Below, in pieces: positions 11,273 to 38,271 of a DNA stretch of 46,710 bases. Source of the stretch: a virus; the IMG/VR virus record IMGVR_UViG_3300028765_000021, positions 1 to 46,710 of that record; one strand, 5' to 3'. Each line of letters starts with the position of its first letter. The first letter of the stretch is position 1. The notes below the pieces were generated by a model. That model did no database searches and was not told the origin of the DNA. It worked only from the letters and a program-made list of their open reading frames with translations. The translations under genes and the position numbers were made by a program.

Positions 11273-11286
11273 AGGAAAATCCGGCA

Positions 11287-11520: not shown

Positions 11521-11525
11521 GGCAG

Positions 11526-12581: not shown

Positions 12582-13588
12582 ACACGATTACCAACCGCGA
12601 ATGGATTAAGTGGTACGAGACGGTGGGCCGGAAGCCGATAGCTCACCTGTCGAAAGAGCAGCGCAAAAGAATCGTTCGCGGGTGCCAAGGGAAAGTGGTT
12701 TACTCCAGCCACGAAGAAGCGAAACCAGTAGTTGATTCTCTGCCCCTGATAGACGGGATGTTTCCCCGCTCTTATCGCTGCCAACTCTGCCACGGAATCC
12801 ATATCGGCAACAGCGCAACACGAAAGGCTGAAACCATGTCCACATCACTTGTCTCCATCGAAGCGCAGGCGACAAGCTTGCAAGTTGACTTGAAGAATCA
12901 GATTGAATCCTTTTTCAAGTCACTCCCCGAACTCAAGTCACTCGTCTCCATGAGCGAGGCTCTTGTTGTCCAGTCCAAGGCCATCAAGGTCGGGCGCAAC
13001 GACCCTGACGATTCCAACTACCGCGCGGCCACCGAGCAGACTCAGGCGCTCAAGTCCGTGGTGGATGAGATCACCGAACTCTTTGAACCGTTCGCGGCTG
13101 GACTGTTCAAGGCGCACAGGACGGTGACTAAGCTCCGGGGCGACAACCTGGAGGCGGCCGAGGGCGAAGTGAAGCGCCTCAAGACCGAGCGTGAGGGATT
13201 CGCCGCGGAACAGGAGCGGATGCGCCGTGAAGCCGCGCAGAAGGCCCAGCAAGAGGCTTACGAGCGGGAACAGACCCGATTGATGGAGGAAGCCCGTCAA
13301 GTCGCCGCTACGGGCAACGCAGCCGCCGCAGAGGAGATTCTGGAAGAGGCTGTAAATCTCGAAGTTGCTCCGGTGGTGTTGCCGTCAACCGTTCCAGAGA
13401 TTCAGGGAACGTCCTTTCGGACAAAGTGGAACTGGGAGATGGTGGATGCTACCAAGCTCAAGGCTGAATTCATCACGCCGAAGGAAAAGGAAATCGGCCA
13501 GTTGGTGAGGTCGATGAACAAGGCGGCGGAAACTCTCGTGGGCTCCGGCGCAATCCGGGTGTGGGAATCAAAGATCATTGTGGGGTAG
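12578..13588 (+). CDS. Zinc-ribbon domain joined to a coiled-coil recombination-block protein
   Basis: The 336-residue frame starts in an ATGA overlap with the nuclease. Residues 1-80 look like a stand-alone small phage protein: Gly-Cys-Gln-Gly-Lys-Val-Val-Tyr, then Tyr-Arg-Cys-Gln-Leu-Cys-His-Gly-Ile-His-Ile-Gly. Residues 87-336 form a second unit with its own ATG (12836, AAAGG eight to nine bases before it), with a long charged coiled coil (about 180-265, Glu/Arg/Ala/Gln-rich) and a C-terminal globular end. The second unit resembles DUF1351-type proteins that sit near annealing proteins. No stop separates the two, so they are either fused or made from two starts. Confidence 0.75.
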   Translation: MNTITNREWIKWYETVGRKPIAHLSKEQRKRIVRGCQGKVVYSSHEEAKPVVDSLPLIDGMFPRSYRCQLCHGIHIGNSATRKAETMSTSLVSIEAQATSLQVDLKNQIESFFKSLPELKSLVSMSEALVVQSKAIKVGRNDPDDSNYRAATEQTQALKSVVDEITELFEPFAAGLFKAHRTVTKLRGDNLEAAEGEVKRLKTEREGFAAEQERMRREAAQKAQQEAYEREQTRLMEEARQVAATGNAAAAEEILEEAVNLEVAPVVLPSTVPEIQGTSFRTKWNWEMVDATKLKAEFITPKEKEIGQLVRSMNKAAETLVGSGAIRVWESKIIVG

Positions 13589-13590
13589 GC

Positions 13591-15240: not shown

Positions 15241-17549
15241 GGGAAATGGTAATCACATCGCACGATACGGTCATGGGGGCCGAGATGATTCTACCCATGC
15301 AACGCCAGTGGGGAGAATACGACAAGTTCCTCGAGGCCAAGCGATTCACGCCGGTTGTCTCCGGCCTTACCGAAGTGCCTCCGCTGTGCCCTGCGATGTT
15401 CCCGCACCAGCGCGACGTGACGGGGTGGGCATTGCGCCTGGGCCGTGCGGCTGCGTTTCTGGGCACGGGCATGGGAAAGAGCTTGATTGAGTTGGAGTGG
15501 GCGCGATGCGTCTACGAACATACTGGGGTGCCGGTACTGCTGTTGGCCCCGCTCGCCGTGGCCTACCAGATGGTCACAGAGGGCCAGAAGTTCGGCATCC
15601 ACACTAAATACTGCAAACATCCCGAAGACGCAGCAGATGAGCATATCGTGGTCACAAACTACGAGCGGTTGGAGCACTTCGATGCGGAGGATTATTCCGG
15701 GGTGGTGCTGGACGAATCGAGCATATTGAAATCGTTCGACGGGGCAACACGGCAAGCACTGATTGACACCTTCCGCGACACCCCATACAAATTGGCGGCG
15801 ACGGCGACCCCAGCCCCGAACGATCACATGGAACTAGGCAACCACGCGGAGTTCCTAGGGGTTATGACCGCGACTGAGATGCTCTCGATGTTCTTTACAC
15901 ACGATGGGGGGGAGACGCAGAAGTGGCGACTCAAAGGCCATGCCCGCACGGAGTTCTGGAAGTGGGTTTGCTCATGGGCCGTCAACATTCGCAAGCCGTC
16001 AGACGTGGGTTACGACGATGGGCCGTTCATTTTGCCCCCGCTTCGATATCACGAGCACATCGTGGACGTGGACACGCCGAGCGAAGGGATGCTGTTCGCT
16101 ATGCCAGCGGAGACGTTAGGCGAGAGGCTGGCTGCGAGACGTTCCACTGTGGATGATCGCGTGAGGGAAGTTGTGCGGATCGTGGAAGCGGAGCCGGAAG
16201 AGACTTGGCTGATTTGGTGCAATCTTAATCGGGAGAGCGAGGCCATCAATGCGGCCATCCCTGATTCGGTTGAATTGACCGGCTCAGATCCACCAGAAGA
16301 GAAAGCGCGTCTTTCCTTGGAGTTCGCACAAGGCGAGATTCCCGTGATGGTGAGCAAGGCTTCAATCCTGGGGTTTGGAGTGAACTATCAGGTTTGCTCG
16401 CACATGATATTCGCCGGGGTAAATGACTCATGGGAGCAGTTCTTTCAGGCAATCCGCCGTTGCTGGCGATTCGGGCAAACCGAGCCCGTTCACGTTCACA
16501 TCATCGCCGCATCGACAGAGGGAAACGTACTCGAAAACCTGAAACGGAAAGAAAGAGAGGCTGAGAACATGGCGGAAGAGATGCAAGCCAACATGCAGGA
16601 CTTGACGCGGATGAACTTGCACGGCACGGTGCGGAGCGTCTCAACTTACGAGCGGGAGTGCAATAAAGAAGACGATTGGGAGATGCACCTTGCCGATTGC
16701 GTAGAACTGGCGCGGGAGCTTCCCGAGAACAGCATCCACTATTCTGTCTACTCCCCACCATTTGAATCGCTCTACACCTACTCCAATTCAGAGCGCGACA
16801 TGGGAAACGCGAAGAATACGGATGAGTTTTGGCAGCATTACAAGTTCCTGATTGCCGAGCAGTACCGCGCACTCATGCCGGGGCGACTCGTCTCCATCCA
16901 TTGCATGAACCTGCCCACGTCCAAAGTCCGCAATGGGTTTATCGGGATCAGGGACTTTCGGGGCGAGATTATCCGCGCATTTGAAGAGGCTGGATTCATC
17001 TACCATTCCGAGGTCTGTATCTGGAAAGACCCTGTTACCGCTATGCAGCGCACCAAAGCCCTTGGGCTGCTCCATAAGCAGATTCGCAAGGACTCGTGCA
17101 TGAGCCGTCAGGGGGTGCCGGATTATCTTGTGACCATGCGGAAGCCGGGAGAAAACCCGGAGCGCGTAGGGCACACGTCCGAAGAGTTCCCGGTCCAACT
17201 ATGGCAGCAATACGCATCCCCAGTCTGGATGGACATTAACCCGTCCGATACGCTGCAATACCGTTCGGCGCGGGAACACAACGATGAGCGCCATATCTGC
17301 CCTTTGCAGTTGGAAGTCATTCGCCGTGCCGTCAAACTGTGGACGAATCCAGGCGATGTGGTTTGGAGTCCGTTCGCGGGAATCGGCTCTGAGGGTTTCG
17401 TTGCGCTGGAGATGGGCCGCAAGTTCATCGGGAGCGAATTGAAGCCGAGCTACTATCGCCAAGCGTGCAAGAATCTGGCGGCAGCACTGAGCGCGACGGC
17501 GGGGCTGTTCGCTGATAGGGAGGATAGTGACGACTCTCCAGATTGTTAG
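15237..17549 (+). CDS. SNF2-type helicase fused to an N4/N6 DNA methyltransferase
   Basis: The 770-residue protein has two enzymes in one chain. Residues 50-440 are an SNF2/SF2 ATPase: motif I Gly-Thr-Gly-Met-Gly-Lys-Ser (76-82), motif II Asp-Glu-Ser-Ser (159-162), Ala-Thr-Ala-Thr-Pro (188-192), and motif VI Arg-Arg-Cys-Trp-Arg-Phe-Gly-Gln (407-414). Residues 480-760 are an amino-methyltransferase with Ser-Pro-Pro-Phe (506-509, motif IV) ahead of Pro-Phe-Ala-Gly-Ile-Gly (712-717, motif I), the beta-class order for adenine-N6 or cytosine-N4. A charged helix (435-465) joins them. A motor-driven methylase could modify DNA as it moves. It follows another helicase with an ATGA overlap. Confidence 0.93.
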   Translation: MREMVITSHDTVMGAEMILPMQRQWGEYDKFLEAKRFTPVVSGLTEVPPLCPAMFPHQRDVTGWALRLGRAAAFLGTGMGKSLIELEWARCVYEHTGVPVLLLAPLAVAYQMVTEGQKFGIHTKYCKHPEDAADEHIVVTNYERLEHFDAEDYSGVVLDESSILKSFDGATRQALIDTFRDTPYKLAATATPAPNDHMELGNHAEFLGVMTATEMLSMFFTHDGGETQKWRLKGHARTEFWKWVCSWAVNIRKPSDVGYDDGPFILPPLRYHEHIVDVDTPSEGMLFAMPAETLGERLAARRSTVDDRVREVVRIVEAEPEETWLIWCNLNRESEAINAAIPDSVELTGSDPPEEKARLSLEFAQGEIPVMVSKASILGFGVNYQVCSHMIFAGVNDSWEQFFQAIRRCWRFGQTEPVHVHIIAASTEGNVLENLKRKEREAENMAEEMQANMQDLTRMNLHGTVRSVSTYERECNKEDDWEMHLADCVELARELPENSIHYSVYSPPFESLYTYSNSERDMGNAKNTDEFWQHYKFLIAEQYRALMPGRLVSIHCMNLPTSKVRNGFIGIRDFRGEIIRAFEEAGFIYHSEVCIWKDPVTAMQRTKALGLLHKQIRKDSCMSRQGVPDYLVTMRKPGENPERVGHTSEEFPVQLWQQYASPVWMDINPSDTLQYRSAREHNDERHICPLQLEVIRRAVKLWTNPGDVVWSPFAGIGSEGFVALEMGRKFIGSELKPSYYRQACKNLAAALSATAGLFADREDSDDSPDC

Positions 17550-18770: not shown

Positions 18771-18976
18771 AACACGCTGGCGGTAGACCGTGCCAACCTG
18801 AGCCTTACGCATGGATGATGCGATTCGGAGTCGTGCTCACAAGTCCACGGCGATTGTTGACCTCTCGCTTGTGCTGGCAGCTCTGCCAGTGCAGGAGCGA
18901 TGAGGCGTGGCGCTTGATATTGGGAGTGTCGCTTAAGAATCGAACAAAGCAACCTCTGCCCCTCGGCGAGCGGTGA
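18767..18976 (+). CDS. Possible last gene of the rightward block, 69 residues
   Basis: ATG 18767 overlaps the previous stop (ATGA). The product has several Cys and Arg residues but no ordered zinc pattern. Its last 44 bases overlap the convergent lysozyme gene. A small hairpin (18874-18889, CTGGCA/TGCCAG) lies inside it. The case rests only on the start overlap. Confidence 0.4.
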   Translation: MKHAGGRPCQPEPYAWMMRFGVVLTSPRRLLTSRLCWQLCQCRSDEAWRLILGVSLKNRTKQPLPLGER

Positions 18977-19346
18977 GCCCAATGTTCGTCACGCCATTCA
19001 CATGATTCCAGCGGGGGATTTGATTCGGCACCTCATCCCACCCGTGTGCCACCATAATTCTAAGCGATGCTATCCCTAAGTTGTAGGCAAAATCTACCAG
19101 CGCGTCGAACTGGTTTTGTGTGCAGTCGGTTGGAATGACCGCGTTTACTGCTGGCTCGTACCTGGTGGCAAGGTCTTGGCGAAGAAGCAGGTCGGCCTGA
19201 TCCCGAGAGATTTGCAGTGGGGCGGCCTCTCCGGCTTGCTGATCGTGCCCATATCCCCATTGCAGACGGCCGTTATCGCTACAGGGAAGCGCAGAGAATC
19301 CTTCGTTGCTTTTGATGAGCGTGATTCCGTTGTCGCTGGTCTGCAT
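18933..19346 (-). CDS. Endolysin, GH24-type lysozyme
   Basis: From ATG 19346 the product has 137 residues and is the cell-wall hydrolase that ends infection. Glu15 (Ser-Asn-Glu-Gly-Phe) is followed nine residues on by Asp24, as in T4-type lysozymes, and Trp-Gly-Tyr-Gly-His (30-34) and Phe-Asp-Ala-Leu-Val-Asp-Phe-Ala-Tyr-Asn-Leu-Gly are the other family marks. The catalytic threonine position reads Gln/Trp (Leu-Gln-Trp) instead of Thr-Ile. There is no signal peptide, so a holin is needed for release. It is the last gene of the leftward block. The frame is open to 19418, but the added part is Arg-rich noise. Confidence 0.92.
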   Translation of the reverse strand: MQTSDNGITLIKSNEGFSALPCSDNGRLQWGYGHDQQAGEAAPLQISRDQADLLLRQDLATRYEPAVNAVIPTDCTQNQFDALVDFAYNLGIASLRIMVAHGWDEVPNQIPRWNHVNGVTNIGLTARRGAEVALFDS

Positions 19347-19347
19347 G

Positions 19348-19545
19348 CTACGCGCTCGGCGCCGTGAGTTTGGCGATTTCCGCCTGCGCGGTTGCGGTAA
19401 TGTTGGCATCGACCGCATTTGCTGCGGCGAGAATATCGGCCAGCGGCTTGAGGGCGTTTGCGTTCGCCTGCTGGATGCCGTTGTAAATCTGGCTGAATAT
19501 CTGGATGCCGAGGGCGGCGAGATTGGCGATGGCTACCGGGTCCAT
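19348..19545 (-). CDS. Small Ala-rich amphipathic/membrane protein of the lysis block
   Basis: ATG 19545 shares its first base with the previous TAA (TAATG). The 65-residue product is rich in Ala, Ile, Leu and Asn, starts with a hydrophobic helix (Ala-Ile-Ala-Asn-Leu-Ala-Ala-Leu-Gly-Ile-Gln-Ile-Phe) and continues with an Ala-rich helix. It lies directly before the lysozyme, where a pinholin or an accessory would be expected, but it has no clear membrane anchor besides the N-terminus. Confidence 0.7.
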   Translation of the reverse strand: MDPVAIANLAALGIQIFSQIYNGIQQANANALKPLADILAAANAVDANITATAQAEIAKLTAPSA

Positions 19546-20012
19546 TAGTTTCCTCCCAGAACGGTTGCGATGACGTTCAGTGCGGTTTTCGCGCCAATCA
19601 TGGCGAGATCGAAGTCTTGCCTGGCAGTAGCGGACTTGATGTGCAAATCGCCATCGGCCTGCAACTGCGCGATGCCGGTGATTGCTGTATTGGCGCAGGT
19701 CACAGCCGCCCCAGCGGTCCCAGCTGCTCCAATACAGGTGTTGGTGGTCTGGTCGAGCGTTGCGATAGTCTCGACAGATTGCTGGATGAACAGGTGGTCG
19801 GAGTCTGAAATGACCACACATCCGGCAGTTCCCGCTTGCGCGCATGCCTTGCCCTGATTGTAGGCCGCGATCTCGCCCTGCTGAAGGCCTTGGACGACGA
19901 TCATTGCCTGTTCTGAGGCTGTGGCTGCTTTCTGGAGTTGCGATTGGTTGGCGGGGCAGCCAGTAAGCAGGCTGGCGCATAGGACGCAAAGAAAGACGGC
20001 GATTCTCTTCAT
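19545..20012 (-). CDS. Lipoprotein of the lysis block, possible outer-membrane spanin
   Basis: From ATG 20012 (AAGGAG five bases before it) the product has 155 residues. Residues 1-19 are a lipoprotein signal peptide: Met-Lys-Arg, a hydrophobic core, and the lipobox Leu-Thr-Gly-Cys, so Cys19 would be acylated. The mature part is Gln/Ala/Thr-rich with four cysteines. In phages of Gram-negative hosts the lipoprotein of the lysis cassette is usually the outer-membrane spanin that fuses the membranes. This one is longer and less Pro-rich than Rz1. An ATGA overlap joins it to the gene upstream. Confidence 0.8.
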   Translation of the reverse strand: MKRIAVFLCVLCASLLTGCPANQSQLQKAATASEQAMIVVQGLQQGEIAAYNQGKACAQAGTAGCVVISDSDHLFIQQSVETIATLDQTTNTCIGAAGTAGAAVTCANTAITGIAQLQADGDLHIKSATARQDFDLAMIGAKTALNVIATVLGGN

Positions 20013-20329
20013 GATTTCTCCTTCACCGGCACTGCTGCCGGGTCGATGGGTTCGAGTTCCGCCGCGACGTTCTCTACTTTCGTAGCAGGCGGGAACGTGG
20101 CGGGCATGGTTAGATTGGGCGGCATCCGGTAGAGATGCGCGAGCGCGGCAATGGCGGCAGTGGCAGCGTATCCAGTGAGCTTGTTGATTCCGCCCCGCGT
20201 CCAGTCGATCTTCCCGGAGGCCATCTCGTCCTGAATCCCTGAGACAATAGCGCCGACCGCCGCGCTGGATACAGTAACGAAAATCGGATTGCTGCGAATC
20301 TTTGCCCACAACGCAGTCAGCTTATTCAT
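20009..20329 (-). CDS. Membrane protein of the lysis block, candidate holin
   Basis: Starting at ATG 20329 the product has 106 residues, with a hydrophobic segment around residues 18-34 (Phe-Val-Thr-Val-Ser-Ser-Ala-Ala-Val-Gly-Ala-Ile-Val) and a second around 50-65 (Ala-Thr-Ala-Ala-Ile-Ala-Ala-Leu-Ala), then a Pro-rich acidic tail ending Lys-Glu-Lys-Ser. Two helices and the place beside the lysozyme suit a class II holin. It overlaps both neighbours. Confidence 0.65.
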   Translation of the reverse strand: MNKLTALWAKIRSNPIFVTVSSAAVGAIVSGIQDEMASGKIDWTRGGINKLTGYAATAAIAALAHLYRMPPNLTMPATFPPATKVENVAAELEPIDPAAVPVKEKS

Positions 20330-20537
20330 GGTTGTCCTTTTTGTCTGCGCGGTCCATTGCAGAGTCGCGGCCTTCAATGTTGCCCTCTGCGCGGTCTGCT
20401 CTGCTGCGATATTCCAGCAAGCCATCGGTTTTGATCGCCAATCTTCGAATACCTAAGCGATTCCAGATTACACCGGCAGAGCCAAGGATGCCAAGTACCC
20501 ACCCGCCCCATCCTTCGATGTTTTCCTTGGTAATCAT
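20322..20537 (-). CDS. Single-pass membrane protein with charged helix
   Basis: ATG 20537 overlaps the previous TGA. The 71-residue product has one hydrophobic segment (Gly-Trp-Val-Leu-Gly-Ile-Leu-Gly-Ser-Ala-Gly-Val-Ile-Trp, about 10-24) followed by a strongly charged helix with Arg-Ala-Asp-Arg-Ala-Glu and Ala-Met-Asp-Arg-Ala-Asp-Lys-Lys. This N-in, helical periplasmic layout is what an inner-membrane spanin looks like, so with the lipoprotein downstream it could form a two-component spanin. The assignment is tentative. Confidence 0.65.
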   Translation of the reverse strand: MITKENIEGWGGWVLGILGSAGVIWNRLGIRRLAIKTDGLLEYRSRADRAEGNIEGRDSAMDRADKKDNHE

Positions 20538-20689
20538 TTTGGCTTCACTCCCTGCTCTGCGAGCCATTCCGCATGCTTCTTGTCCAGTTCGATTCCCGTC
20601 TTGGTTGCGGGCGTCGGCTGTGGCGGAACAGGGAGCGGACTCGGGTTATTGGGATCAGGCTGGATCGGCGGGTTCGGCTTCGTGGGCAT
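20534..20689 (-). CDS. 51-residue proline-rich peptide
   Basis: ATG 20689 opens a frame of 52 codons ending in an ATGA overlap with the next gene. The first half is almost only Pro, Asn, Thr and Gln (Pro-Asn-Pro-Pro-Ile-Gln-Pro-Asp-Pro), and the second half is a helix with Lys-Lys-His-Ala-Glu-Trp-Leu-Ala-Glu-Gln-Gly. Embedded between membrane protein genes, it may be a spacer-like lysis accessory. Function unknown. Confidence 0.6.
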   Translation of the reverse strand: MPTKPNPPIQPDPNNPSPLPVPPQPTPATKTGIELDKKHAEWLAEQGVKPK

Positions 20690-20697
20690 TGGTCACC

Positions 20698-21006
20698 TCA
20701 GTGGGAATGGACTGTCGAGGTCTGCGGAGGAAACTGCGTAGAGGATACCACCGACGGGTCAAGTCTGCTTACCTTTCCACGTGCTTCGAGCGAGCCGAAC
20801 CAGACACCCAGCGCCACTATCGAGATGCTGATAACCCACGCCACCACCTTGAGCACTAAAGTAGCGCCGCTGATCTGGCCGGCGAGGTTGGACATCTCTG
20901 TACCCAGATGAGCCTGGCCTTGCTTGAGCGATTCAATGTCGCCCCGGTTCTGCGCGTGATGAGCGTCCATCAGTTGCCGCAAGCCGTCCGCTTCAGTGCT
21001 TCCCAT
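20698..21006 (-). CDS. XhlA-like membrane protein, candidate holin or holin partner
   Basis: ATG 21006 has AAGGAG six bases before it. The 102-residue product begins with a helical coiled-coil part (Leu-Arg-Gln-Leu-Met-Asp, Ile-Glu-Ser-Leu-Lys-Gln), continues with one membrane helix (about 49-70, Val-Leu-Lys-Val-Val-Ala-Trp-Val-Ile-Ser-Ile-Ser-Ile-Val-Ala) and ends with a Ser/Thr tail. A coiled coil before one membrane helix is the XhlA/haemolysin layout found beside phage lysins. It heads the lysis cluster, directly after the fibre genes. Confidence 0.7.
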   Translation of the reverse strand: MGSTEADGLRQLMDAHHAQNRGDIESLKQGQAHLGTEMSNLAGQISGATLVLKVVAWVISISIVALGVWFGSLEARGKVSRLDPSVVSSTQFPPQTSTVHSH

Positions 21007-21055
21007 CTGCGTCTCCTTGTTGACCACGTTCCCTCTTCCTTTGCGGGCCAAGTTT

Positions 21056-22294
21056 TTATACCGGGCCATAAACCCAGAAGATCTTCCCGCTCTGGCACTT
21101 CGCGAACACCACATTCTTTGCCCACTGACTCTGATGCTGGAAGACCTCGGCGTTCGATCCGGTGCAATTTGTATTTGGAATCGTGCCGGTGTTCTGCCAT
21201 GTCACACCGTTGTCGCTGGAGACTAGATTCCATTTCGTGTTCGAGGTGTGCTCTTGAACGCTCCAATAGAATTTAGTCCCATAGAGCCATCCCATTGAGG
21301 AAATCCCATTCTGGAAGGCCACGCAATGAGTCCCGTCATAGGGGTAAACGCACGTGCTATTGGTCACGGCTCCAGTGGAGAGGTTCATTGACGAGACGCC
21401 ATTGGGGTACGTCGACGTCTGCTGGATGAGCAGCACAGAGGAATCGGACGCAAGGCTGTTGCCATTGCCTGTGTAGCCTGAAGTTAAATACTGGCCACAG
21501 GAAGCAAAGCTGGTGGGGAAGCCAAGCAGCACGCCCTCGCCGAAGGTGAATAGGCGCTCCGTTCCGCTAAGCACCGCGTCGTTGATCGTATAAAGACTGC
21601 CGGCAGTGCGCGAACCGCAGATGGAGAGCGTGTAGACATTCGCCGCCACATTTGAAAATGTCGTCCCGCCAACAGACGTAGACCGCCAGATATTGCCGCT
21701 CCGGGCGGGGATGAAATAGCTGTATCCAGCCACGTCTTGCGCGAATTGATAGATATCGCTCCCGCCCGTGGTGGAGGAAGTGTACCCGCCAACCGGACTC
21801 CACGACGGCGATACCGTGGAACCGTTCCAGACAAGAACATCCAGAGCGGTCGCGTTGTTGGTGCTCGTGTTATTGCTCATCGAAAATAACACGTTTCCGC
21901 TCCCATCGACGAACAAACTTACTCCGTATTCGGTCCCGCACGCTGTGCATGTGGCCGATGTGATCGTACCCAGAGCGACCCAGCTATTCGCTGAGGGATT
22001 TGCAGCGAGAGACGCTGTATCCCAACGGTACAAATAAGTGACCCAGTTTGGACTGGTGCCTGTCGTCACTTCTGCATAGGTGTAATTGTCAGCCTGGTTC
22101 GAGAACAGATTCCCGCCTGCCGATAGAGATGTGAAAATGGACGGCATGGCGATCTGATTCCACGCAGGGACGGGCGTTATCGGCGCTGGCGCCGGGCCTA
22201 GAAAGACACTTCCATTCACCAGCGTGTCATTCTGCGCCAGCGCTATCGAGCAACAGAGGATCGCGAATATCAGGATGTTTTTTACTGTATCCAT
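21056..22294 (-). CDS. Secreted Asp-box (BNR) beta-propeller-like protein
   Basis: From ATG 22294 the product has 412 residues. Residues 1-20 are a Sec signal peptide: Met-Asp-Thr-Val-Lys-Asn, a core of Ile, Leu, Phe and Ala, and cleavage after Ala-Leu-Ala before Gln. The mature chain is rich in Ser, Thr, Asn, Gly and Trp, with a clear Asp-box Ser-Ser-Asp-Asn-Gly-Val-Thr-Trp near the C-terminus and several looser ones, as in sialidase-type propellers. It overlaps the end of the giant fibre gene and comes before the lysis genes. It may bind or cut host surface sugars. A phage virion protein would not normally carry a signal peptide. Confidence 0.8.
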   Translation of the reverse strand: MDTVKNILIFAILCCSIALAQNDTLVNGSVFLGPAPAPITPVPAWNQIAMPSIFTSLSAGGNLFSNQADNYTYAEVTTGTSPNWVTYLYRWDTASLAANPSANSWVALGTITSATCTACGTEYGVSLFVDGSGNVLFSMSNNTSTNNATALDVLVWNGSTVSPSWSPVGGYTSSTTGGSDIYQFAQDVAGYSYFIPARSGNIWRSTSVGGTTFSNVAANVYTLSICGSRTAGSLYTINDAVLSGTERLFTFGEGVLLGFPTSFASCGQYLTSGYTGNGNSLASDSSVLLIQQTSTYPNGVSSMNLSTGAVTNSTCVYPYDGTHCVAFQNGISSMGWLYGTKFYWSVQEHTSNTKWNLVSSDNGVTWQNTGTIPNTNCTGSNAEVFQHQSQWAKNVVFAKCQSGKIFWVYGPV

Positions 22295-25200
22295 GTCGGC
22301 ACCATCGCTGTCGCTGCTGCGCAGTTCGTTCCTGAAGTTGCTTGCCCCAGACAAGTTGCACTCGCTGTTGCGCTGTAGACAAACCCCATCATGAACGAGT
22401 AACTACTGCCACCCGTGCATGCGGACCCGCAGCTAATTAACGATCCAGTGTTGGGATTGCCACCTAGACCATTCACCCCGAGCCGCACAAACGAGGTCGA
22501 GAACTCGCCCGGCGTTGCTGTGGCAACCACCGTAAATTCCGCTCCGTTGCCTATAGCCGTGGCCGAAGTGATGGTTCCCGCCGTCTGCTGATAAAGATTC
22601 ACGAAACCGCTAGAACACGTGTGTCCTGAGATGTTAGCGGTGGGGCAGATCCCGAATGTAAGCTGCCACGTTGGCGTGGCATTTGAGGTAAAGTCGAATG
22701 TCCACTTTAGATCAATGCCATGATGAGTTCCGTCTATCGTGTTCGCAGTCGAAGCCGTGGTGACGGTGCAGTAGTCGTTGAAGACCTGAAGCACTGTAGC
22801 GCCCGATTGATTGCCCACAAGATCGGTTCCCAAGGACGTGTTCGTGGTGGGAGTGCAGGCATTGAAGAGCGCTGAAAGCGAGGTCTGCCCGGTGCCTCCA
22901 TTCGCTACGGGAAGTGTACCCGTGATCGAGTGAGCAAGATCCAATTTCCCGTAAGTTGGGGCTGCTGAGCCGCTCGTATCGTTCTGTAGCACATCATAGG
23001 CCGGAGCGTTTGCAAGAGTTGCGGTAACGCTCCCGGTTGAAGCGCTGTTGTTGAGAACTACCGAATCGCCAGTGAAACTGTTTACCCCTCCGCTGGTAAG
23101 GTTGGCTGTGCAATATCCAGCCGCAGCCGCGGATAGGAAACTCGGGGTGACTGTGGAAACGTAAGTCGCTCCGGTTGCATAGGCATAGGACGTGATGGCG
23201 AGAGTAGTTTGTGTCGTGCTTGCTCCCGTCCAGCATTGGGTGATGATCGAATTGTAGTTCGCATTCGGGACCGTCAAACCGGCAACGGAGATAGTGCAAC
23301 TTGTAGCCGAGGCGCTAAAGGTGCAGTCTGGATTCAATGCGCTGCCGCCGCTTCCCCCACCGCCGCCACTGCTGTTGATTGTCTGGTTTGGCCATGAGCC
23401 GGTGATTGTAACGTTGGTTCCGGCAACAAGCGCTGGAGAGGATGTTCCGGTTCCCCCATTCGCTACAGCGAGCGGCGTGGTAACTGCGACTAGCTGCTTG
23501 CTTGAATTAGTGCCCACCAGTGTTGCCGATGCTGGAATGGCCGCGCCTTCAATCTGCACCACCGTGGCTGCGTTGGAGCCGCTGGTTGTTACGTCGCCAC
23601 TCAGTTCAGCCGCCGTCATAGCACTAGAGTTGCCGCGCATGAGTCCAGTAAGCGTGCTCCCAGTTCCAGTGCCGCCGTTGGCGATAGATACTGGTGTCGT
23701 GATTCCACCACCCGAAGAATTGTACTGCGGCGTCAACAGCACATTTTGGGTTCCCGTTCCCGCTGTGACCGCGATTCCTACTATCCAGACGCCGGTTGGC
23801 GGTGCTGATGTATAAGCCGTTCCTGAGTCGTGAACGTCGCCCCTCGTGGTTGTTCCTGTCACTACCCAGTCGTTGGCCACTGCGGTATTTTCAAAAACAA
23901 GATTTTGCACGCCAATGGGCGAGAGATAGCAGTTGCCGGTTGTGCCATATCCCGTTTCGACGGGGAAGGCAGGGACTGTGGTATCCGTGGTGAGAGGAAG
24001 AATGCAGTTCCCGGCGCTGTTGATCTTGGCCAGGTGCGCCTGTAAGGTTCCCGTGGTTCCGTCATTTGCGATTCCGCCGCCAGACTTGACGCTAACTACC
24101 GTCAGATTTCCGGCGCCGTCTGAAAGCGATTGCGGATCGCAAGTTGCGGTCGTTCCTGTCGAAGCCGCGCGGAACATTCCGCCCGCAGTTCCGCAACTGC
24201 TCACGGTCCCAGAACCTGCCGCGTTGGCCAGAACGAATTGGTCCGTAGCGATGTCGGTTGAGTTATCAGCGAGAGCCTGCGTAGTCGCAGTAGTTCCATT
24301 CGGCAGTGCGGGGGTTCCGCTGAGATTGGATGCGGTTCCTGTCGTGTTCTGGTTGAGCGTCGGAAAGCTGGTCATGTTCGCCGCGCTTATCGTCGGAGCC
24401 GTCTGGTAAGAGGGTGCGCCCGCTCCCCCGCTCGCCGGACCCGCCAGGACCGAGTTCTGCGCCGCATTGGACAGGGAAAAACTGAGGGCCGGTGTGCTCG
24501 TTGCCGTGGCCACGCTGCTCGTAAACAGCGGCGAAAGATTTCCCGCGCTGAAGCTGGTCACCGTTCCCGCTCCACTCGGCGTATGCCAGTTGCCGTCAGC
24601 TCCGCAATACTGCGTTGACGTTCCTCCGGTTGCGCAAGTCACCACCTGGCTGTTTGCGCTGCTCTCCGATGTGATGGCAGTGCCGCTGTTAATAGCAATG
24701 GAGTTGGTTTGGATCCCTCCGGCTGGCAACGATCCCCACCCATTATCATTCTCTGTGTACCGATCCCCTTGCTGAGTTGTCAGAAGAGGTTCGCTGACGG
24801 TTAAAGTCCCGGTCCCAGTCACGCCCTGTAAATAAATGGCAAAATACGGCCCCCCTGTATTTGTGGCGACGTTCGCAGCTGACATAACACGTTGATTTGT
24901 GCCGTTCACAGCCTGGTAGCTGTGGTAAAAGGTTCCGCATGAAGTTGTTGTGCAAAGGCCCACATAAACATGGCCTCCGGTGATGGTCGAAGCGTTGACC
25001 CCTGCACCAAAATAGTAGGAGGTTCCAAGTTGAAAATTGGGGATGGCAGTGGGAACGACAATAACGCCTGTTCCCGCAGTGCCGGATAGATTGTAACTGA
25101 ATGCGTTGTCACCATTCGCACCAACCCCGCCAACCACCGTAACCCCGCTTGGGCAGGTCCAGTAGATTCCACAACCAGACTTCATGTCCGTATCTGGGAG

Positions 25201-28200
25201 CAGGTTCACGGCCTGCTTGGCGGGGTTGACAAGCAACCAGTAAGTTCCATATTGGTCCTGAACGTCAACGCAGGTAAATGGCTGGAGTACGTTGGGCACA
25301 TTCAGATTTGTCGATCCCACCGTCAATGTTTGCGTGACTGAGGTCTCGCTGCAAGCCCTAAACTCGCGCCCATTGGCGAAAGCGGTTGCTGCGGGAATCA
25401 CTATCGGGACCGTACTCCAAATTGTTCCATCGGCAGGGCCAAAAGTGGCAGTCCCGCTGGTTACGTTTCTCAGATTCGGCAAAAGCCCCGCTCCGGGTCC
25501 GAACATCGGCTGCATTACCGATAGAAAGGCGTCGGCGAGGTGAGGGTGACCACCGATAAAGAATGTGTTCCCAGCTATAGTGCAAGTGGTGCTGTTGGGG
25601 TGCAAGCCGGGGAGTGACGACGCGATTGTCGCGCATCCGTTGGGCAACGTCGCGGCGGCCATGTCGCTATTCAGCGTAGCGTAGTCAAGATCGACAAATG
25701 CTCGTACATTCACGAAGAAGTCGAGCGCGCCATCGGCGAGAAGCTGATTGGCCACCGTTTGCACCACAGTGTCATACGCTGCCGTAGCGGCAGAAGAGGT
25801 GTCTGCGCTTTGGCGGATGGTTCCACCTAAAGCGAGCCGCGGGGGATTCTGCGTCAAGCTCGAAAGGTTGGTGTTGATTATCTGGGTAGGCGCCCCTTCC
25901 CAACCAAACACAAAGCCATTGCCGCTCGTGCAGTTGGCTGTGCATGTAACGATAAACGTGTGTGTCCCGCTTCCCGTGCCAACGAACCTTTGCGCAAACA
26001 TGGTTGGGTTGGTCGGATTGTTTATCGTCCCTACCGTTTGCCCACTGAACCCATAGCCGTTCACCGTGACTGGGCTTCCCCCATCCACTACAACTGTCGC
26101 CTGCTGAGTTCCGTTGTAGGTGGCGAGCCAGTTGAGATAGAGGGCCGTCGATGAGGTAAGCGTGGTGCAGCTAAGCGATGCCCCGGCTGATTGCAACTGA
26201 AGCGTGGTCACATTGCCGTAGGTGCCCGTTGCCACGGTTCCACTTGTAGTACAGGAGGCCGCAGAGTAGTTTCCCCCGCTGATTGTGTTCTCGACAGGGA
26301 TGGTCCTATTGGCCGCCAGAGAATATAGCTCCGCAGTGGCGTTCGCCACGCCGCCAGCGTTGGTACCCAGAGTGTTGGCGTCGTTGACGCAGCACAAAAC
26401 TGTGCTCCACATATTTCCAGTTCGCGAAGGCGCCGACAGCGAGTATGCCTGAGCCACCATATCTGCCGCTTGCGATCCGGTCACAGCGACATTTGTACCA
26501 TTCGCTCCAAGCTGAGCGTTCATCAAATTGACGTAGCATCCGCCTGGGTTGTCCGGCGCAAATGACCCGTTGCAACCCGTGATCGAATCACCTATATAAT
26601 TATTTCCCGGCAGAGAGTATGCATTGCCGCCATTGCCCCAGGATGGATTTGTACTTCCATTCTGAATCACCGTTCCGTAACCGCCTCCAGCGGGCAAACT
26701 CCCGCCGCCAGCGCAGCCCGCAATAATGCTCCCGTCTGTCGCCCAGCAGTTCGATCCTGATCCGCCGCTCGGCGCGCTTACCCCGGAAATCGTCAATATG
26801 CCAGCCGGGGAGATGGTAGATACAACGCCACTGTTCGATTCAGCGGCCTGCGTTGACACAAAGAAATTTTGAGACAGATCGAACCCGAAAGAGCCAGCAA
26901 TGCTGTTTGGATTCGCTATACCCACACTCCCGCTTACGATAGCGCCGCTTCCGCCGGAAGCTCCCGTTATCGTCAATGTTGGCGGGATTGTCCATATACC
27001 GTTTGTTGTGACAGTGCAGGCCAGGCCTCCAGTGCCCGACAGGCTGACCGAGCAAGTATCGGCACTTCCTCCGGTTCGCGTACCACCGGAAAGAGCGCAA
27101 GTTCCCGGAACTGTATAGCTGCTTCCTCCGCAAACTCCTTTGCTTGGGTTTAAGGTTCCTCCCGTGTTCTTGTTGGAGGCTGTTATGCCTACCCTCTGAG
27201 GGAGTGCCAGAGTTGGGCTAACCATGGGGTTGAGATCAATTCCATTGAACCCCGCCGACGTCTGCGACACGGCGTTTATTTGAATACTAGCTTGGCTCTG
27301 TGTCCCCGAATTCAAACTGTTTCGGCCAAACGTTATTGCGGGAAGCGAGTAGATACTGTTGAACGAGAAAGGGGAAAACGTGAGGTTCCCTTGACAGGGA
27401 TTGTAGATATTCATGGAGTATACGGGGTTTGTTCCTGGGAAGTAGATCCACGGGAAGATGTTGGTGCCCAGACCGCCGCAGTCAACGCTTTCGTAGGCAG
27501 TGTTGTTTCCACTCGCTACGATTGGCTCTAGGACTGGGTTATGAAGAAAGGGCCGGTCGATGAGGGGCGTAATGGAACCGAGCACCGGGCCCCCACCATT
27601 TTGAGTTTGATTCCCATTGAAGAGGCCGGTAAATCCGATAGTAGGCCAGCTAGGCTGAACCTCGAGGGTAACCGTTGCCCCAGTCCCCGCCCCATCGTTT
27701 ACAGTGACGCTTGGGGCCAGCGTGCAGGACGCGCTCGAAGCATTAGTTATATATGGATTTACGGAGCCGTGGATTTGGAGTGCGCTCACATCGTAACCAA
27801 GAACAGGCGGCGTGGTGCATGTCCCTCCGGTAACCGAGAAGGACGGGGACGTGTAGCCTGAGCCCACCGTATAAGATTGGATTTCCACGCTGTAATTGGA
27901 TTGCGTCTGATTGGAGCCGGAGGCGGCCGACCCAATCTGCACAAAGTTCGTTCCATCATTCCAGACACTCACGGTAGCGCCATTAGGAATGGTGACGCCG
28001 GTTCCACTTGCCCCTATGATCTGGATTGCCTGGGCACCTGTAGTGGCGTTCTCAATCGTGAAAGGAAAAGCCCCGGTGGGGGAGATGAGATTGCGCGTGG
28101 CGGTGAGGCTGGTCGAAGAAGTCGCTTTGATATAGAACGCGCTTGTCTCCTGCGCCGTCATCGTGCGGTCGGCATCTGAGGAAAAGATGAGAATGCCATT

Positions 28201-28317
28201 GTTGACGCACGGGAACCCCTGACATCCAATGTTGCCAGTCAGGTTGATCTGCGGGGCCGGAATCTGGGCAGCGCATGACGCGCAAACCGCCAGCACGAAT
28301 CCAATCAGCTTCCTCAT
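22282..28317 (-). CDS. Giant fibre-like protein with signal peptide and SGNH hydrolase domain
   Basis: The longest gene encodes 2011 residues and abuts the previous stop. Residues 1-17 form a Sec signal peptide (Met-Arg-Lys-Leu-Ile-Gly-Phe-Val-Leu, cleavage near Cys-Ala-Ala|Gln). Around residues 570-930 lies an SGNH/GDSL esterase-like domain: Ile-Gly-Asp-Ser-Ile-Thr with Ser578, Val-Asn-Asp-Ala-Asn and Gly-Gly-His-Pro-His with His924; the usual Asp three residues before this His is replaced by Ile. The C-terminal third has tail-fibre repeats (Ala-Asn-Gly-Gly-Thr-Gly at least three times) and a beta-rich tip. It probably deacetylates or binds host polysaccharide. The signal peptide is the odd part. 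Confidence 0.88.
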   Translation of the reverse strand: MRKLIGFVLAVCASCAAQIPAPQINLTGNIGCQGFPCVNNGILIFSSDADRTMTAQETSAFYIKATSSTSLTATRNLISPTGAFPFTIENATTGAQAIQIIGASGTGVTIPNGATVSVWNDGTNFVQIGSAASGSNQTQSNYSVEIQSYTVGSGYTSPSFSVTGGTCTTPPVLGYDVSALQIHGSVNPYITNASSASCTLAPSVTVNDGAGTGATVTLEVQPSWPTIGFTGLFNGNQTQNGGGPVLGSITPLIDRPFLHNPVLEPIVASGNNTAYESVDCGGLGTNIFPWIYFPGTNPVYSMNIYNPCQGNLTFSPFSFNSIYSLPAITFGRNSLNSGTQSQASIQINAVSQTSAGFNGIDLNPMVSPTLALPQRVGITASNKNTGGTLNPSKGVCGGSSYTVPGTCALSGGTRTGGSADTCSVSLSGTGGLACTVTTNGIWTIPPTLTITGASGGSGAIVSGSVGIANPNSIAGSFGFDLSQNFFVSTQAAESNSGVVSTISPAGILTISGVSAPSGGSGSNCWATDGSIIAGCAGGGSLPAGGGYGTVIQNGSTNPSWGNGGNAYSLPGNNYIGDSITGCNGSFAPDNPGGCYVNLMNAQLGANGTNVAVTGSQAADMVAQAYSLSAPSRTGNMWSTVLCCVNDANTLGTNAGGVANATAELYSLAANRTIPVENTISGGNYSAASCTTSGTVATGTYGNVTTLQLQSAGASLSCTTLTSSTALYLNWLATYNGTQQATVVVDGGSPVTVNGYGFSGQTVGTINNPTNPTMFAQRFVGTGSGTHTFIVTCTANCTSGNGFVFGWEGAPTQIINTNLSSLTQNPPRLALGGTIRQSADTSSAATAAYDTVVQTVANQLLADGALDFFVNVRAFVDLDYATLNSDMAAATLPNGCATIASSLPGLHPNSTTCTIAGNTFFIGGHPHLADAFLSVMQPMFGPGAGLLPNLRNVTSGTATFGPADGTIWSTVPIVIPAATAFANGREFRACSETSVTQTLTVGSTNLNVPNVLQPFTCVDVQDQYGTYWLLVNPAKQAVNLLPDTDMKSGCGIYWTCPSGVTVVGGVGANGDNAFSYNLSGTAGTGVIVVPTAIPNFQLGTSYYFGAGVNASTITGGHVYVGLCTTTSCGTFYHSYQAVNGTNQRVMSAANVATNTGGPYFAIYLQGVTGTGTLTVSEPLLTTQQGDRYTENDNGWGSLPAGGIQTNSIAINSGTAITSESSANSQVVTCATGGTSTQYCGADGNWHTPSGAGTVTSFSAGNLSPLFTSSVATATSTPALSFSLSNAAQNSVLAGPASGGAGAPSYQTAPTISAANMTSFPTLNQNTTGTASNLSGTPALPNGTTATTQALADNSTDIATDQFVLANAAGSGTVSSCGTAGGMFRAASTGTTATCDPQSLSDGAGNLTVVSVKSGGGIANDGTTGTLQAHLAKINSAGNCILPLTTDTTVPAFPVETGYGTTGNCYLSPIGVQNLVFENTAVANDWVVTGTTTRGDVHDSGTAYTSAPPTGVWIVGIAVTAGTGTQNVLLTPQYNSSGGGITTPVSIANGGTGTGSTLTGLMRGNSSAMTAAELSGDVTTSGSNAATVVQIEGAAIPASATLVGTNSSKQLVAVTTPLAVANGGTGTSSPALVAGTNVTITGSWPNQTINSSGGGGGSGGSALNPDCTFSASATSCTISVAGLTVPNANYNSIITQCWTGASTTQTTLAITSYAYATGATYVSTVTPSFLSAAAAGYCTANLTSGGVNSFTGDSVVLNNSASTGSVTATLANAPAYDVLQNDTSGSAAPTYGKLDLAHSITGTLPVANGGTGQTSLSALFNACTPTTNTSLGTDLVGNQSGATVLQVFNDYCTVTTASTANTIDGTHHGIDLKWTFDFTSNATPTWQLTFGICPTANISGHTCSSGFVNLYQQTAGTITSATAIGNGAEFTVVATATPGEFSTSFVRLGVNGLGGNPNTGSLISCGSACTGGSSYSFMMGFVYSATASATCLGQATSGTNCAAATAMVPTWIQ

Positions 28318-29148
28318 TTAGCTTGCCACCTTGATATTGAATGTGCCAGTCAGCGGATTCGTAGACTGGTAAAGGAACATACTCACCACCACGCCATTGA
28401 CGTTTGTAAAGCTGACGGCGGTCGGTGTGTTGAACGCGAAAGGAAATCCAGTTCCGGTATCCACGAAAGTATGCGAACCGCCAATAAGCAGCAGATAGAC
28501 ATTTTGACCGGAGGGTGCGAAAGGTCCGAACACGGAGCCTACCGATTCAGATCCTAATTGGAGGGTCCCCAGTGCTGCGCTATTGCTGAGAATGGCCGTT
28601 GTGCCGGAAGCGGTGACTGTGGAGGTCGCGCCAGAAGCGCCCAATCCGCCGAAGATGCGTGGCTGCCACTGATAAGCCTGCGTTGCGGTCTGCGTAGACG
28701 TTCCAATGGCCGTCAGGGTGAACGTCGTTGTGGCGATAGCGTTATGTGAGAAGCTCCCGGTGATCGTTCCGCTGGCAAACGGACTTGTCAGGTTGGTAGG
28801 AGAACTAATTCCGTCCGTATTGGTGATCGCCGCGCTCGATGGAAGCGCCGAGTAGGTAGCGGAACAAGCCGGATTAACCACATGAAAACCCAGCTCCACA
28901 GTCCCGTTGCAGCCAGTAAAGCTGGTGATGGAGAACGGCGCGCTGGATGCACAATTGGCTGGACTCACGGACCACACTCCTGAATCTACGCGCGGACACC
29001 CGGTAAGCGCGTGGCTGTCGAGTCCCAAGCCGCCGTTGACTGGCTGCACTACGCCCTTGACCTGGGGCGCTGGGATGGTCGTATTGAGGTTCACCTGGGC
29101 GTGGGCGATGCCGCCAAGCAGTGCAATCAAGAGAAGCAGTTTCTTCAC
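28318..29148 (-). CDS. Secreted fibre-like protein, 276 residues
   Basis: GTG 29148 has a strong AGGAGG five bases before it. The first 18 residues are a textbook signal peptide: Met-Lys-Lys, seven hydrophobic residues, and Ala-His-Ala|Gln. The mature chain is Ser/Thr/Gly-rich and beta-like. It shares Ile-Pro-Ala-Pro-Gln and a Val-Asn-Gly-Gly-Leu-Gly element with the giant fibre gene that follows directly, so the two are related. It has four to five cysteines, which would form disulphides in the periplasm. Likely role: fibre base or receptor-binding accessory. Confidence 0.82.
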   Translation of the reverse strand: MKKLLLLIALLGGIAHAQVNLNTTIPAPQVKGVVQPVNGGLGLDSHALTGCPRVDSGVWSVSPANCASSAPFSITSFTGCNGTVELGFHVVNPACSATYSALPSSAAITNTDGISSPTNLTSPFASGTITGSFSHNAIATTTFTLTAIGTSTQTATQAYQWQPRIFGGLGASGATSTVTASGTTAILSNSAALGTLQLGSESVGSVFGPFAPSGQNVYLLLIGGSHTFVDTGTGFPFAFNTPTAVSFTNVNGVVVSMFLYQSTNPLTGTFNIKVAS

Positions 29149-32824: not shown

Positions 32825-33465
32825 TACCAGCCCCAGTTTCCAGAGCCAACTTTGCTCACTGCCGTTCCAAGATTACCGAATCCTTGAGCGCCAGCCGCGC
32901 CCGCAAATCCCGCCGTCGCGCCGCCGAGAGCTCCGCCCAGCGCCTTCCCGAATTGGCTCCCGAATGTGTTGCCCTGCGCCTGAGTCAGATCACCCAGCGC
33001 CGCGTTTGCGCCCTGTCCGTAAGTGCCGACATTCCCCGCATAGGTCTGCGCATTTCCGCTAAGTACCGATGCCGCATTGAACTTGTTTGCGAGTCCCTGC
33101 TGGGCATTGTTCAGTGTCACGGTGCGGAGCGAGTCAGCCAGATCGCCAGCCTTCGCCGCTTGCAGGTTGCCGTAGCCAGTCGCCGCCACGCCGGAACCCG
33201 GAGTGTTGCCGAGACCCTCACCCCGCGCTGCAAGTTGCGAATTCGCCTGCTGGGTGGCTCCGTTGTACTGGAGCGCATTCTGGTCGAGCGCCTGCGAGTT
33301 CAGCGCCGCCATCTGCTGAGGAGTAAAGCCTTGATTGCCGGTAAGATACGGGGAAAGCGCGGTGTTGTTCTGCTGGAGCAGGGAATTTTGCGACGCCTGC
33401 TGCTGCTGCTGAAGTTGATTCTGTGTCTGAAGTTGTGCCTTCTGATCCCCGGTAGGCTGGCTCAT
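32824..33465 (-). CDS. Gln/Ala/Gly-rich virion protein, candidate ejection protein
   Basis: From ATG 33465 (ATGA overlap with the GNAT-like gene) the product has 213 residues. It begins with a Gln-rich helix (five Gln in a row), continues with Asn/Ala-rich amphipathic stretches and ends with an Ala-Gly glycine-zipper-like segment (Ala-Leu-Gly-Gly-Ala-Leu-Gly-Gly-Ala, about 175-200) that could insert into a membrane. It is the first of three adjacent ejection-like proteins, as in P22-like phages (gp7, gp20, gp16), though homology is not shown. Confidence 0.7.
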   Translation of the reverse strand: MSQPTGDQKAQLQTQNQLQQQQQASQNSLLQQNNTALSPYLTGNQGFTPQQMAALNSQALDQNALQYNGATQQANSQLAARGEGLGNTPGSGVAATGYGNLQAAKAGDLADSLRTVTLNNAQQGLANKFNAASVLSGNAQTYAGNVGTYGQGANAALGDLTQAQGNTFGSQFGKALGGALGGATAGFAGAAGAQGFGNLGTAVSKVGSGNWGW

Positions 33466-33857
33466 CGAATCCTCAGTTTCAGTCCGTCTCCCCACGCGGT
33501 GAATCCATGACGCAAAGCAAAATCGCGGGTGTTCGGATCACTTGAAAATGCAATCACATCGGCCAATCCTTCAGCGTGAGCACGAGTGAAAGCCGCCGCG
33601 GTGAGCTGGTGCTGCGCCGAAGCAAGTTCCATTGGAGTCAAACTGCCGACTGGAACCAGTGATCCCAAGGTCATTGAGAGAAACTGGGGCTGATACATGA
33701 TAATCCGATTTTCGACTTCGGCGACCATAATTCTCGTGCAAGGCAAAGTAAACACGTCATTAGGGAACCCTTTTCCGCTAGAATCGACGGCCAGAACGAA
33801 GGCCGCTTTGTCTTCCTCGTCGTACATTCGGAGAGGACGCACCCAGACGTGCTTCAT
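33462..33857 (-). CDS. GNAT-like acyltransferase-fold protein in the tail block
   Basis: The 131-residue product looks like a short GNAT: Val-Leu-Ala-Val-Asp near 22, a central beta-strand region, Thr-Arg-Ala-His-Ala-Glu-Gly (helix), Val-Ile-Ala-Phe-Ser, and Phe-Ala-Leu-Arg-His-Gly-Phe near the end, the usual last motif. The pyrophosphate-binding Arg/Gln-X2-Gly-X-Gly/Ala loop is not evident, so it may be structural rather than catalytic. It is coupled by ATGA overlaps on both sides, deep within virion genes. Similar small GNAT-like genes occur in other podovirus tail regions. Confidence 0.65.
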   Translation of the reverse strand: MKHVWVRPLRMYDEEDKAAFVLAVDSSGKGFPNDVFTLPCTRIMVAEVENRIIMYQPQFLSMTLGSLVPVGSLTPMELASAQHQLTAAAFTRAHAEGLADVIAFSSDPNTRDFALRHGFTAWGDGLKLRIR

Positions 33858-34471
33858 ACGCTCTGCCCCGTATAGGTGCCAGTTCCGAGCCCCGAAGCGC
33901 CGACGTTCGCAGTGAAGAATATCAGCCCTTCCGTGATGCGCTCGTTGGTGGTAAGCCTTTGGGTTCGACTTGCAGCCGAGATAAGAAGCGGCGTTGCTGC
34001 CGGCGAGAACGCGAAGCCTGGGGCACCTGCATCGCCAGCAGCAAAGGATAGGCTCTGCGGCTGCGCGATGGCCACGAACGAGGAGAATCCATACTGCACC
34101 CCAGCCGTCAAGCCGCCAATGGTCATCGAGCCGGAGGTAATCGAGTAGTTTGACCCGTCAGCACGGCGGATTGCAAGTAGTTTAGAGCCGTTCGATCCAT
34201 CCCAGTGGATTGTGATCGCGCTTCCGGTGGATGTGAAGGCGAAATTTCCCTGCACCACGAATGCAAATGTGGAGCCGGTTGCAGTGATTCCGGTCGGGGC
34301 AATCGTGCCGGAGGTGGTTACAGCCCCTTTTGCTGGCACCGCAAGCGTCGAGTTTGAGAACGTCTGCCGTCCAGCGATTGAGGTAGGATAGCCAGCCTCA
34401 AGACGCGACAGACGCGCATCATCGGTGTTCGATAGCTTCGAGTTGTCGGGAAATGCCAGAAAATTATTCAT
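33854..34471 (-). CDS. Beta-rich structural protein
   Basis: ATG 34471 overlaps the stop of the large gene upstream (ATGA). The 205-residue product has an N-terminal Asn-Phe-Leu-Ala-Phe-Pro-Asp segment, a short helix, then about 150 Gly/Thr/Ser-rich residues with fibronectin-like strands (Ala-Ile-Thr-Ile-His-Trp-Asp, Leu-Thr-Ala-Gly-Val-Gln-Tyr-Gly). It fits a tail-tip or head-decoration protein; no family is named. Confidence 0.7.
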   Translation of the reverse strand: MNNFLAFPDNSKLSNTDDARLSRLEAGYPTSIAGRQTFSNSTLAVPAKGAVTTSGTIAPTGITATGSTFAFVVQGNFAFTSTGSAITIHWDGSNGSKLLAIRRADGSNYSITSGSMTIGGLTAGVQYGFSSFVAIAQPQSLSFAAGDAGAPGFAFSPAATPLLISAASRTQRLTTNERITEGLIFFTANVGASGLGTGTYTGQSV

Positions 34472-37634: not shown

Positions 37635-38249
37635 CTAATACCAGCCGTGCGATTCTAGTTCATCCCCCACCTGTGGAGCTGAATTGAACGTGATGGTATT
37701 GTTCAGCGTGGTGTAGCCATAGGGCGTGGTCAGGAACGGGCTGACAATCACTGTATTCTGCACCACCACCCAGAGCGCGGGAGTGTTGCCGAAAGGGAGC
37801 GAAAACGTCTTATTCGTTCCGTCGATTGCGCCGACGAGCTGCACATAGAATGCCGTGCCACCAGCCCCATTTGGCCCCGGAGGACCGGTCGGCCCCTGGA
37901 TCACGCCAGCCTGCCAGGGAGGGGTTGTAACGTTGGCCAGGTTAGCCAGATTGAACGTGCCCGGCGGCAGTTCCACGTTCTTGATGAATGTGGTTACGCC
38001 GCCGCTTACCAGTTGGAACTGGTAGTAACTGAGCATGTTCCCGTCGCAGCAAATCTGCGTAATGTTGTCATAGAGCGTGCAGATGACCACGCCGTTGAAT
38101 GGGTAGAACTTCTGCGTGATCGGGGCCGGGGTAGAAGTATTGACTACCGATGGCTCAGACCCGCAGTTGAGCAGCGTGATGAGGATGTATGCGCCGGGTG
38201 TTAACCCGCCCGAAAGGGAACTGACGTTCACCGTTACTGAAACCGACAT
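37635..38249 (-). CDS. Tail/connector protein with a collagen-like stretch
   Basis: ATG 38249 is preceded by GAGAGG at seven to eight bases; GTG 38255 is two codons earlier. The 204-residue product has a beta-rich N-terminal half, a short collagen-like run Gly-Pro-Thr-Gly-Pro-Pro-Gly-Pro (about 120-128) and a C-terminal domain with Thr-Phe-Ser-Leu-Pro-Phe-Gly-Asn. The C-terminal domain resembles small fibre or spike tips. It lies just before the stabilisation protein. Confidence 0.75.
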   Translation of the reverse strand: MSVSVTVNVSSLSGGLTPGAYILITLLNCGSEPSVVNTSTPAPITQKFYPFNGVVICTLYDNITQICCDGNMLSYYQFQLVSGGVTTFIKNVELPPGTFNLANLANVTTPPWQAGVIQGPTGPPGPNGAGGTAFYVQLVGAIDGTNKTFSLPFGNTPALWVVVQNTVIVSPFLTTPYGYTTLNNTITFNSAPQVGDELESHGWY

Positions 38250-38271
38250 CCCCACACCTCTCCATCGATCT

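Follow-up and report, generated by a model that had tools for sequence, protein, structure and literature searches.

The virus record IMGVR_UViG_3300028765_000021 of IMG/VR is a 46.7-kb stretch of DNA (46,710 nucleotides; hereafter the window). On its reverse strand lies a block of three consecutive genes, genes 1 to 3 (Table 1), whose products resemble tail fibres and appear to be made for export from the cytoplasm. The block is found downstream of the internal virion and core genes and ahead of the lysis genes, a position that fits tail-fibre or receptor-binding genes. An earlier note, made from the letters alone, had placed Sec leaders on three consecutive genes starting at 29148, 28317 and 22294; the genes were where it put them, and all three leaders passed the predictor used here.

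Three consecutive genes with Sec-type leaders

Signal peptides were called with our own rule-based predictor. Each leader contains an n-region, a hydrophobic core and a c-region of the form small-X-small followed by Gln, with the small residues at −3 and −1 that mark Sec export and processing by signal peptidase I. The n-region of gene 3 is the weakest of the three (one Asp, one Lys; net charge 0). The predictor accepted 3 of 3 window leaders and only 24 of 866 shadow open reading frames (ORFs), every start being allowed, and therefore three leaders in a row are not a matter of chance. Rule-based prediction thus confirms that genes 1–3 start with leaders of the Sec/signal-peptidase-I type, and each would be cleaved before Gln. 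An alternative assignment of gene 2 as a lipoprotein (VCASC) was rejected, since the −3 and −1 residues are unfit for a lipobox and a cut before Gln fits the whole family.

Table 1. Genes, predicted leaders and neighbouring features in the window
Feature	Coordinates	Strand	Remarks
Gene 1, putative exported fibre-like protein, 276 residues	28318..29148	-	C-terminal receptor-type domain; GTG start, GGAGG upstream
Gene 2, putative exported fibre-like protein, 2011 residues	22282..28317	-	46 mature Cys; ATG start, AAGGTGG upstream; SGNH-like motifs, three NGGTG
Gene 3, putative exported protein, 412 residues	21056..22294	-	8 mature Cys; one exact Asp-box; ATG start without strong ribosome site; overlaps gene 2 end
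Gene 1 Sec leader MKKLLLLIALLGGIAHA	29098..29148	-	Predicted cut before Q18 (MKKLLLLIALLGGIAHA, then QVN); present in homologous genes of relatives
Gene 2 Sec leader MRKLIGFVLAVCASCAA	28267..28317	-	Predicted cut before Q18 (MRKLIGFVLAVCASCAA, then QIP); +1 Gln invariant in 7 aligned homologues
Gene 3 Sec leader MDTVKNILIFAILCCSIALA	22235..22294	-	Predicted cut before Q21 (MDTVKNILIFAILCCSIALA, then QND)
Lysis region adjoining the fibre block	18933..20425	-	Lysozyme 18933-19418 (Pfam Phage_lysozyme, E 6e-22); lipoprotein-like ORF 19545-20309 (lipobox-like leader)
206-residue leaderless protein, structural region	37635..38255	-	Short collagen-like stretch (GPTGPPGP; GPTGPPGPNGAGG)

Most features that the earlier note had read in the products were found again: the proteins are Cys-rich (4, 46 and 8 cysteines in the mature forms of genes 1, 2 and 3), the NGGTG motif occurs three times in gene 2 and the Asp-box of gene 3 is exact (SSDNGVTW, residues 359–366). 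Its GDS-type SGNH domain held up only as motifs; GDS (residue 576), CVND (residue 643) and His near 907/923 are present in gene 2, but there is no Asp at the usual DxxH position (−3 to His) and the window protein gave no Pfam SGNH match. A relative, L062, matched Lipase_GDSL at E 0.0012, below the cut-off. The cysteines of gene 1, at residues 51, 66, 80 and 95, are retained in its five closest orthologues. Searches of Pfam and PHROG returned no family for any of the three products and detected in them none of the recognised N-terminal domains for virion anchoring, and no homologue of gene 3 was found in viral contigs. In the structure prediction that the earlier note had proposed, the gene 1 model was mediocre (predicted local distance difference test score, pLDDT, 60; about 80 in the middle domain), and its fold matches were generic immunoglobulin-like domains in the PDB and included phage tail fibres in BFVD; the AlphaFold model of gene 3 failed (pLDDT 33) and was unusable.

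For that note, absence of the leaders from all close relatives would have refuted its reading, but nearly all related phages have leaders on their homologous genes. They occur in most fibre-block genes of homologous viral contigs (G007–G013, L047–L064 and L068), with three to six in succession in some contigs; the longest run seen, six successive leader-bearing fibre-like genes, lies in L068 (4878-15538). Within the gene 2 family, identity was 23% in the leader versus 59% in the mature N-terminal domain, while the +1 Gln was invariant in the aligned (A1) set; for the gene 1 family the values were 42% and 71%. Drift of this kind, with presence kept, is the pattern of a region apparently retained for its physical character. 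The leaders are a property of a whole phage group rather than of a single genome. The third slot of the block is variable in relatives (Asp-box, G8-like as judged by eye, or beta-helix with a chitobiase-C-like domain) and is usually leader-bearing.

Of the 23 loci that have the type-i head-binding module, 22 also have a leader in front of it. The sole locus without one (L158, 7920-10724) encodes 6 cysteines, and its C-terminal region matches phrog_28536/17490. Acidobacteriota chromosomes carry signal-peptide fibre blocks in prophage-like regions; at one of them (L087, 8693-14680, on the 6.4-Mb contig G154:C1), which is a prophage or its remnant, three leader-bearing fibre genes lie beside phage-like core genes. 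Two contigs, G011 and L056, have one leaderless fibre beside leader-bearing ones. In G011 (about 33038-34117, L136) the gene 1 slot is occupied by a leaderless, anchor-bearing fibre and is directly followed by leader-bearing fibres, and both kinds are thereby present in one phage.

Cysteine parity and tail-fibre ancestry

The strongest evidence came from the parity and pairing of cysteines; the earlier note had made no use of its own observation on them. A preference for even cysteine numbers is accepted as characteristic of proteins that are exported and disulfide-bonded, according to a passage of PMC7678975 that cites Dutton 2008, and the mature counts of the three window products are all even. 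The parity analysis took in complete fibre proteins that bear a leader and have 200 residues or more, clustered at 30% identity and half coverage. In the discovery set all 39 cluster representatives were even (P 1.8e-12), with a single odd member (G011:37470, 15 Cys), against 114 odd counts among 215 ORFs without a leader from those genomes. Of the 33 clusters in a fresh set, collected later, 26 were even and 7 odd (P 6.6e-4), against 60 odd of 115 controls; its odd counts were left unedited, though L153:7806 probably reflects a misplaced cut. For one G013 locus (20213-22648) the leader call is uncertain; the discovery set includes this locus among the leader-bearing ones (12 Cys), and nothing depends on it. 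Leaderless fibres of other phages were odd in 10 of 17 cases.

Pairing was consistent with parity in the N-terminal domain of gene 2, where the two cysteines of GNIGCxGFPC were both present in 12 sequences, both absent in 7 and single in none. In the gene 1 domain the two cysteines mostly occur together, with exceptions such as L134, which has a single one, and the homologous domains of leaderless fibres usually have few or no cysteines. A host positive control, made up of exported proteins from one Acidobacteriota genome, gave no even-Cys bias in a small sample that had few cysteines per protein and included lipoproteins; the parity argument therefore rests on the phage controls. Together with the leaders, the phage counts strongly support the predicted export of the fibre proteins and their predicted disulfide bonding.

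The bodies behind the leaders recur in phage fibres that have none. The N-terminal domain of gene 2 is found in marine-phage contigs without a leader and with 0–2 cysteines; one such contig, L065, connects the domain to a protein of Roseobacter phage CRP-901 that is annotated as tail fibre. The C-terminal receptor-type domain of gene 1 recurs in L136, which has neither leader nor cysteine; residues 1–113 of L136 match the N-termini of tail-fibre profiles (phrog_1640, E 7e-11; phrog_5510, E 9e-7). L139, which is leaderless and has no cysteine, is 55% identical to the leader-bearing L142 (6 mature Cys) over a head-binding-like module and receptor domain. Homologous N-modules, either A1, type-i (VYLTxTT..NPF) or type-ii (NGKPLSGGKLYTY), are present in CRP-901 gp50, Klebsiella phage KA2-1 gp15, the Serratia phage MTx tailspike and the Xanthomonas phage PBR31 tail spike; unlike the leader-bearing fibres, these have no signal peptide, CRP-901 has no cysteine at all and the parity of such fibres is random. 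The type-i module sits near the N-terminus of leaderless fibres in Klebsiella, Escherichia, Serratia and Pseudomonas phages, and the type-ii module is preceded by a leader in the Acidobacteriota chromosome described above. Head-binding or anchor modules directly follow the leader in L064/L143, L087, L142 and Tunturi_1 gp12, and the fibre N-modules that leaders precede are of at least three unrelated kinds. Because leaderless relatives put the same receptor domain on a known virion anchor, and because several leader-bearing fibres keep head-binding modules after the cut, the bodies of genes 1 and 2 are genuine tail-fibre modules.

A comparable block exists in the cultured Tunturiibacter phages Tunturi_1 and Tunturi_2 (PP887698, PP885685; PMC11924767), podoviruses of Acidobacteriota, where leader-bearing, mostly even-Cys fibre and spike genes lie upstream of the endolysin as in the window, although the fibre bodies are mostly unrelated to those described here. 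Leaders were found on Tunturi_1 ORFs 12, 13, 14, 16 and 17 and on the same ORFs of Tunturi_2 (1–34 mature Cys); the four large ones have 10–34 mature cysteines, all even. Leaders are missing from the fibres of Tunturi_3, a phage of that same host strain, and these fibres have 0–7 cysteines. Signal peptides and tail fibres go unmentioned in the main text of the Tunturi paper (PMC11924767). Phage proteins with export signals are already known, among them SAR (signal-arrest-release) endolysins, lambda Lom and the T4 antiholin RI (PMC3765740, PMC12309495, PMC8385771), but these are lysis or membrane proteins rather than tail-fibre modules. WceF of Pantoea stewartii is likewise an exported protein with a phage tailspike fold, but it is a bacterial enzyme with a Tat leader and is not phage-encoded (PMC7949094). 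A paper on Bacteroides diversity-generating retroelements states that phage variable proteins are without signal peptides. For Sec-exported tail fibres we found no precedent in the literature searched, whose coverage left most subscription journals outside.

A proposed assembly across two compartments and its rivals

Well-studied tailed phages complete their virions within the cytoplasm. For the window phage, the leaders, their maintenance in relatives, the fibre homology of genes 1 and 2 and the even or paired cysteines are established at the level of sequence, and what seems on balance their best explanation is Sec export and oxidative folding in the periplasm, with the fibres joining virions at lysis. 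According to this model, genes 1–3 would encode the tail-fibre or receptor-binding proteins of a podovirus-like phage, synthesised as Sec precursors whose leader is removed by signal peptidase I. The fibres would acquire disulfide bonds as they fold in the oxidising periplasm, apart from the virions assembling in the cytoplasm; failure of the inner membrane at lysis would then bring the two together, and the fibres would attach to the tail either before the burst of the cell or during it. The wider proposal of a two-compartment assembly, in which a cytoplasmic capsid and tail are united by lysis with fibres matured in the periplasm by the host Sec and disulfide machinery, such that virions become infectious only on cell opening, is put forward more tentatively. 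A virion role is favoured because no receptor-binding candidate besides genes 1–3 is visible in the window, nor any beyond the leader-bearing ones in the inspected part of Tunturi_1, and because head-binding modules are kept after the cut in several relatives and leaderless versions occur in the same gene slot. The earlier note had offered addition to virions, a degrading or decoy system, and a block to superinfection as functions of exported fibre-like proteins; export is well supported, and the evidence favours the first function while still allowing the others.

The main rival holds that the proteins, although exported and disulfide-bonded, form no part of the virion, with fibre modules serving as secreted or surface proteins that bind or degrade glycans, and thereby remove exopolysaccharide, release progeny from debris or prevent superinfection. 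Leaders and paired cysteines suit any exported protein, the SGNH-like, beta-helix and Asp-box bodies suit polysaccharide processing, and WceF is an exported enzyme of tailspike fold. However, the window phage and Tunturi_1 would then be left without any visible receptor-binding protein, several of the exported proteins retain N-modules common to virion-attached fibres, and gene 1 occupies the same slot as anchored fibres; we consider this explanation unlikely, if far from negligible. Several points nevertheless weigh against the model. Its docking step is a prediction; G011 and L056 have fibres both with and without a leader, which keeps the secreted, non-virion alternative alive; and gene 1 of the window does not carry the anchor of L136, so that export and virion anchoring could be alternative fates. 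In addition, the signal-peptide calls come from our own rule set rather than SignalP, the positive control for even-Cys bias is weak, its host sample being negative, and the host of the window phage is deduced rather than observed.

The remaining alternatives concern the leader itself. An uncleaved N-terminus might act as an inner-membrane anchor of the fibre while infection proceeds, or form a hydrophobic plug in the virion tail, as the weak n-region of gene 3 and the unusual c-regions of some leaders could suggest. A structural plug should keep its sequence, whereas here the leader residues drift fast and the hydrophobic core, the small-X-small site and the Gln behind it persist, making this improbable. 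It is also quite improbable that the leaders merely delay folding or prevent binding to cytoplasmic material by way of the membrane or Sec, or are host cargo acquired by chance, with no true periplasmic phase: they resemble host leaders in composition, often down to the Gln after the cut, but the paired cysteines suggest an oxidising compartment, and chance capture would be hard to repeat on three or more unrelated N-modules. Finally, the leader-like starts could be start-codon artefacts of proteins that truly begin downstream, and gene 3 has no clear ribosome site. Genes 1 and 2, however, have no start codon just after the leader and have ribosome sites ahead of the leader starts, and leaders are retained in relatives, which leaves an artefact scarcely credible.

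If export and docking at lysis are true, receptor-binding proteins would leave the cytoplasm first, changing the order of virion assembly. This would suggest a route to disulfide-hardened fibres and make infectivity dependent on lysis, host signal peptidase and disulfide enzymes. Tunturi_1 and Tunturi_2 are cultured on a named host, which for Tunturi_1 is Tunturiibacter psychrotolerans X5P2, and the idea is directly testable there. Annotation is affected too: genes of soil viromes that look secreted may encode tail fibres rather than auxiliary metabolic genes.

Host and other features of the window

The window encodes a terminase large subunit, a head-tail-adaptor-type portal, a major head protein, an internal-virion-type protein, Erf, helicases and a lysozyme, a content that fits a podovirus-like phage. 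Positions 1-698 and 46013-46710 match nearly exactly (the same k-mers recur 46012 bases apart, though not as an exact repeat) and the portal gene start is found at both ends, which together suggest a complete genome, circular or circularly permuted. By query coverage, the top match of the portal among deposited phages was Tunturiibacter phage Tunturi_3 (21% identity over 81%), and a relative of the gene 2 N-terminal domain occurs in an Edaphobacter metagenome-assembled genome, with weaker relatives in four more genomes of that class; of these weaker ones the two strongest have a leader. From these two lines we infer that the host is most likely a member of the Acidobacteriota. Of 26 genomes of the host family, 19 have VKOR, in keeping with the proposed oxidative folding in the periplasm.

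In the leaderless 206-residue protein of the structural region, the collagen-like stretch is followed by a domain that is seemingly repeated in G012 (11031-12182). The N-terminal domain of the 206-residue protein resembles the start of a fibre in G013, where a similar domain is fused to a beta-helix-type fibre, as judged by eye. As a guess, this protein might be a virion socket for the fibres. Elsewhere in the window, at 13561-17549, two successive helicase-like ORFs each match phrog_16, and the second runs into a DNA methyltransferase-like region.

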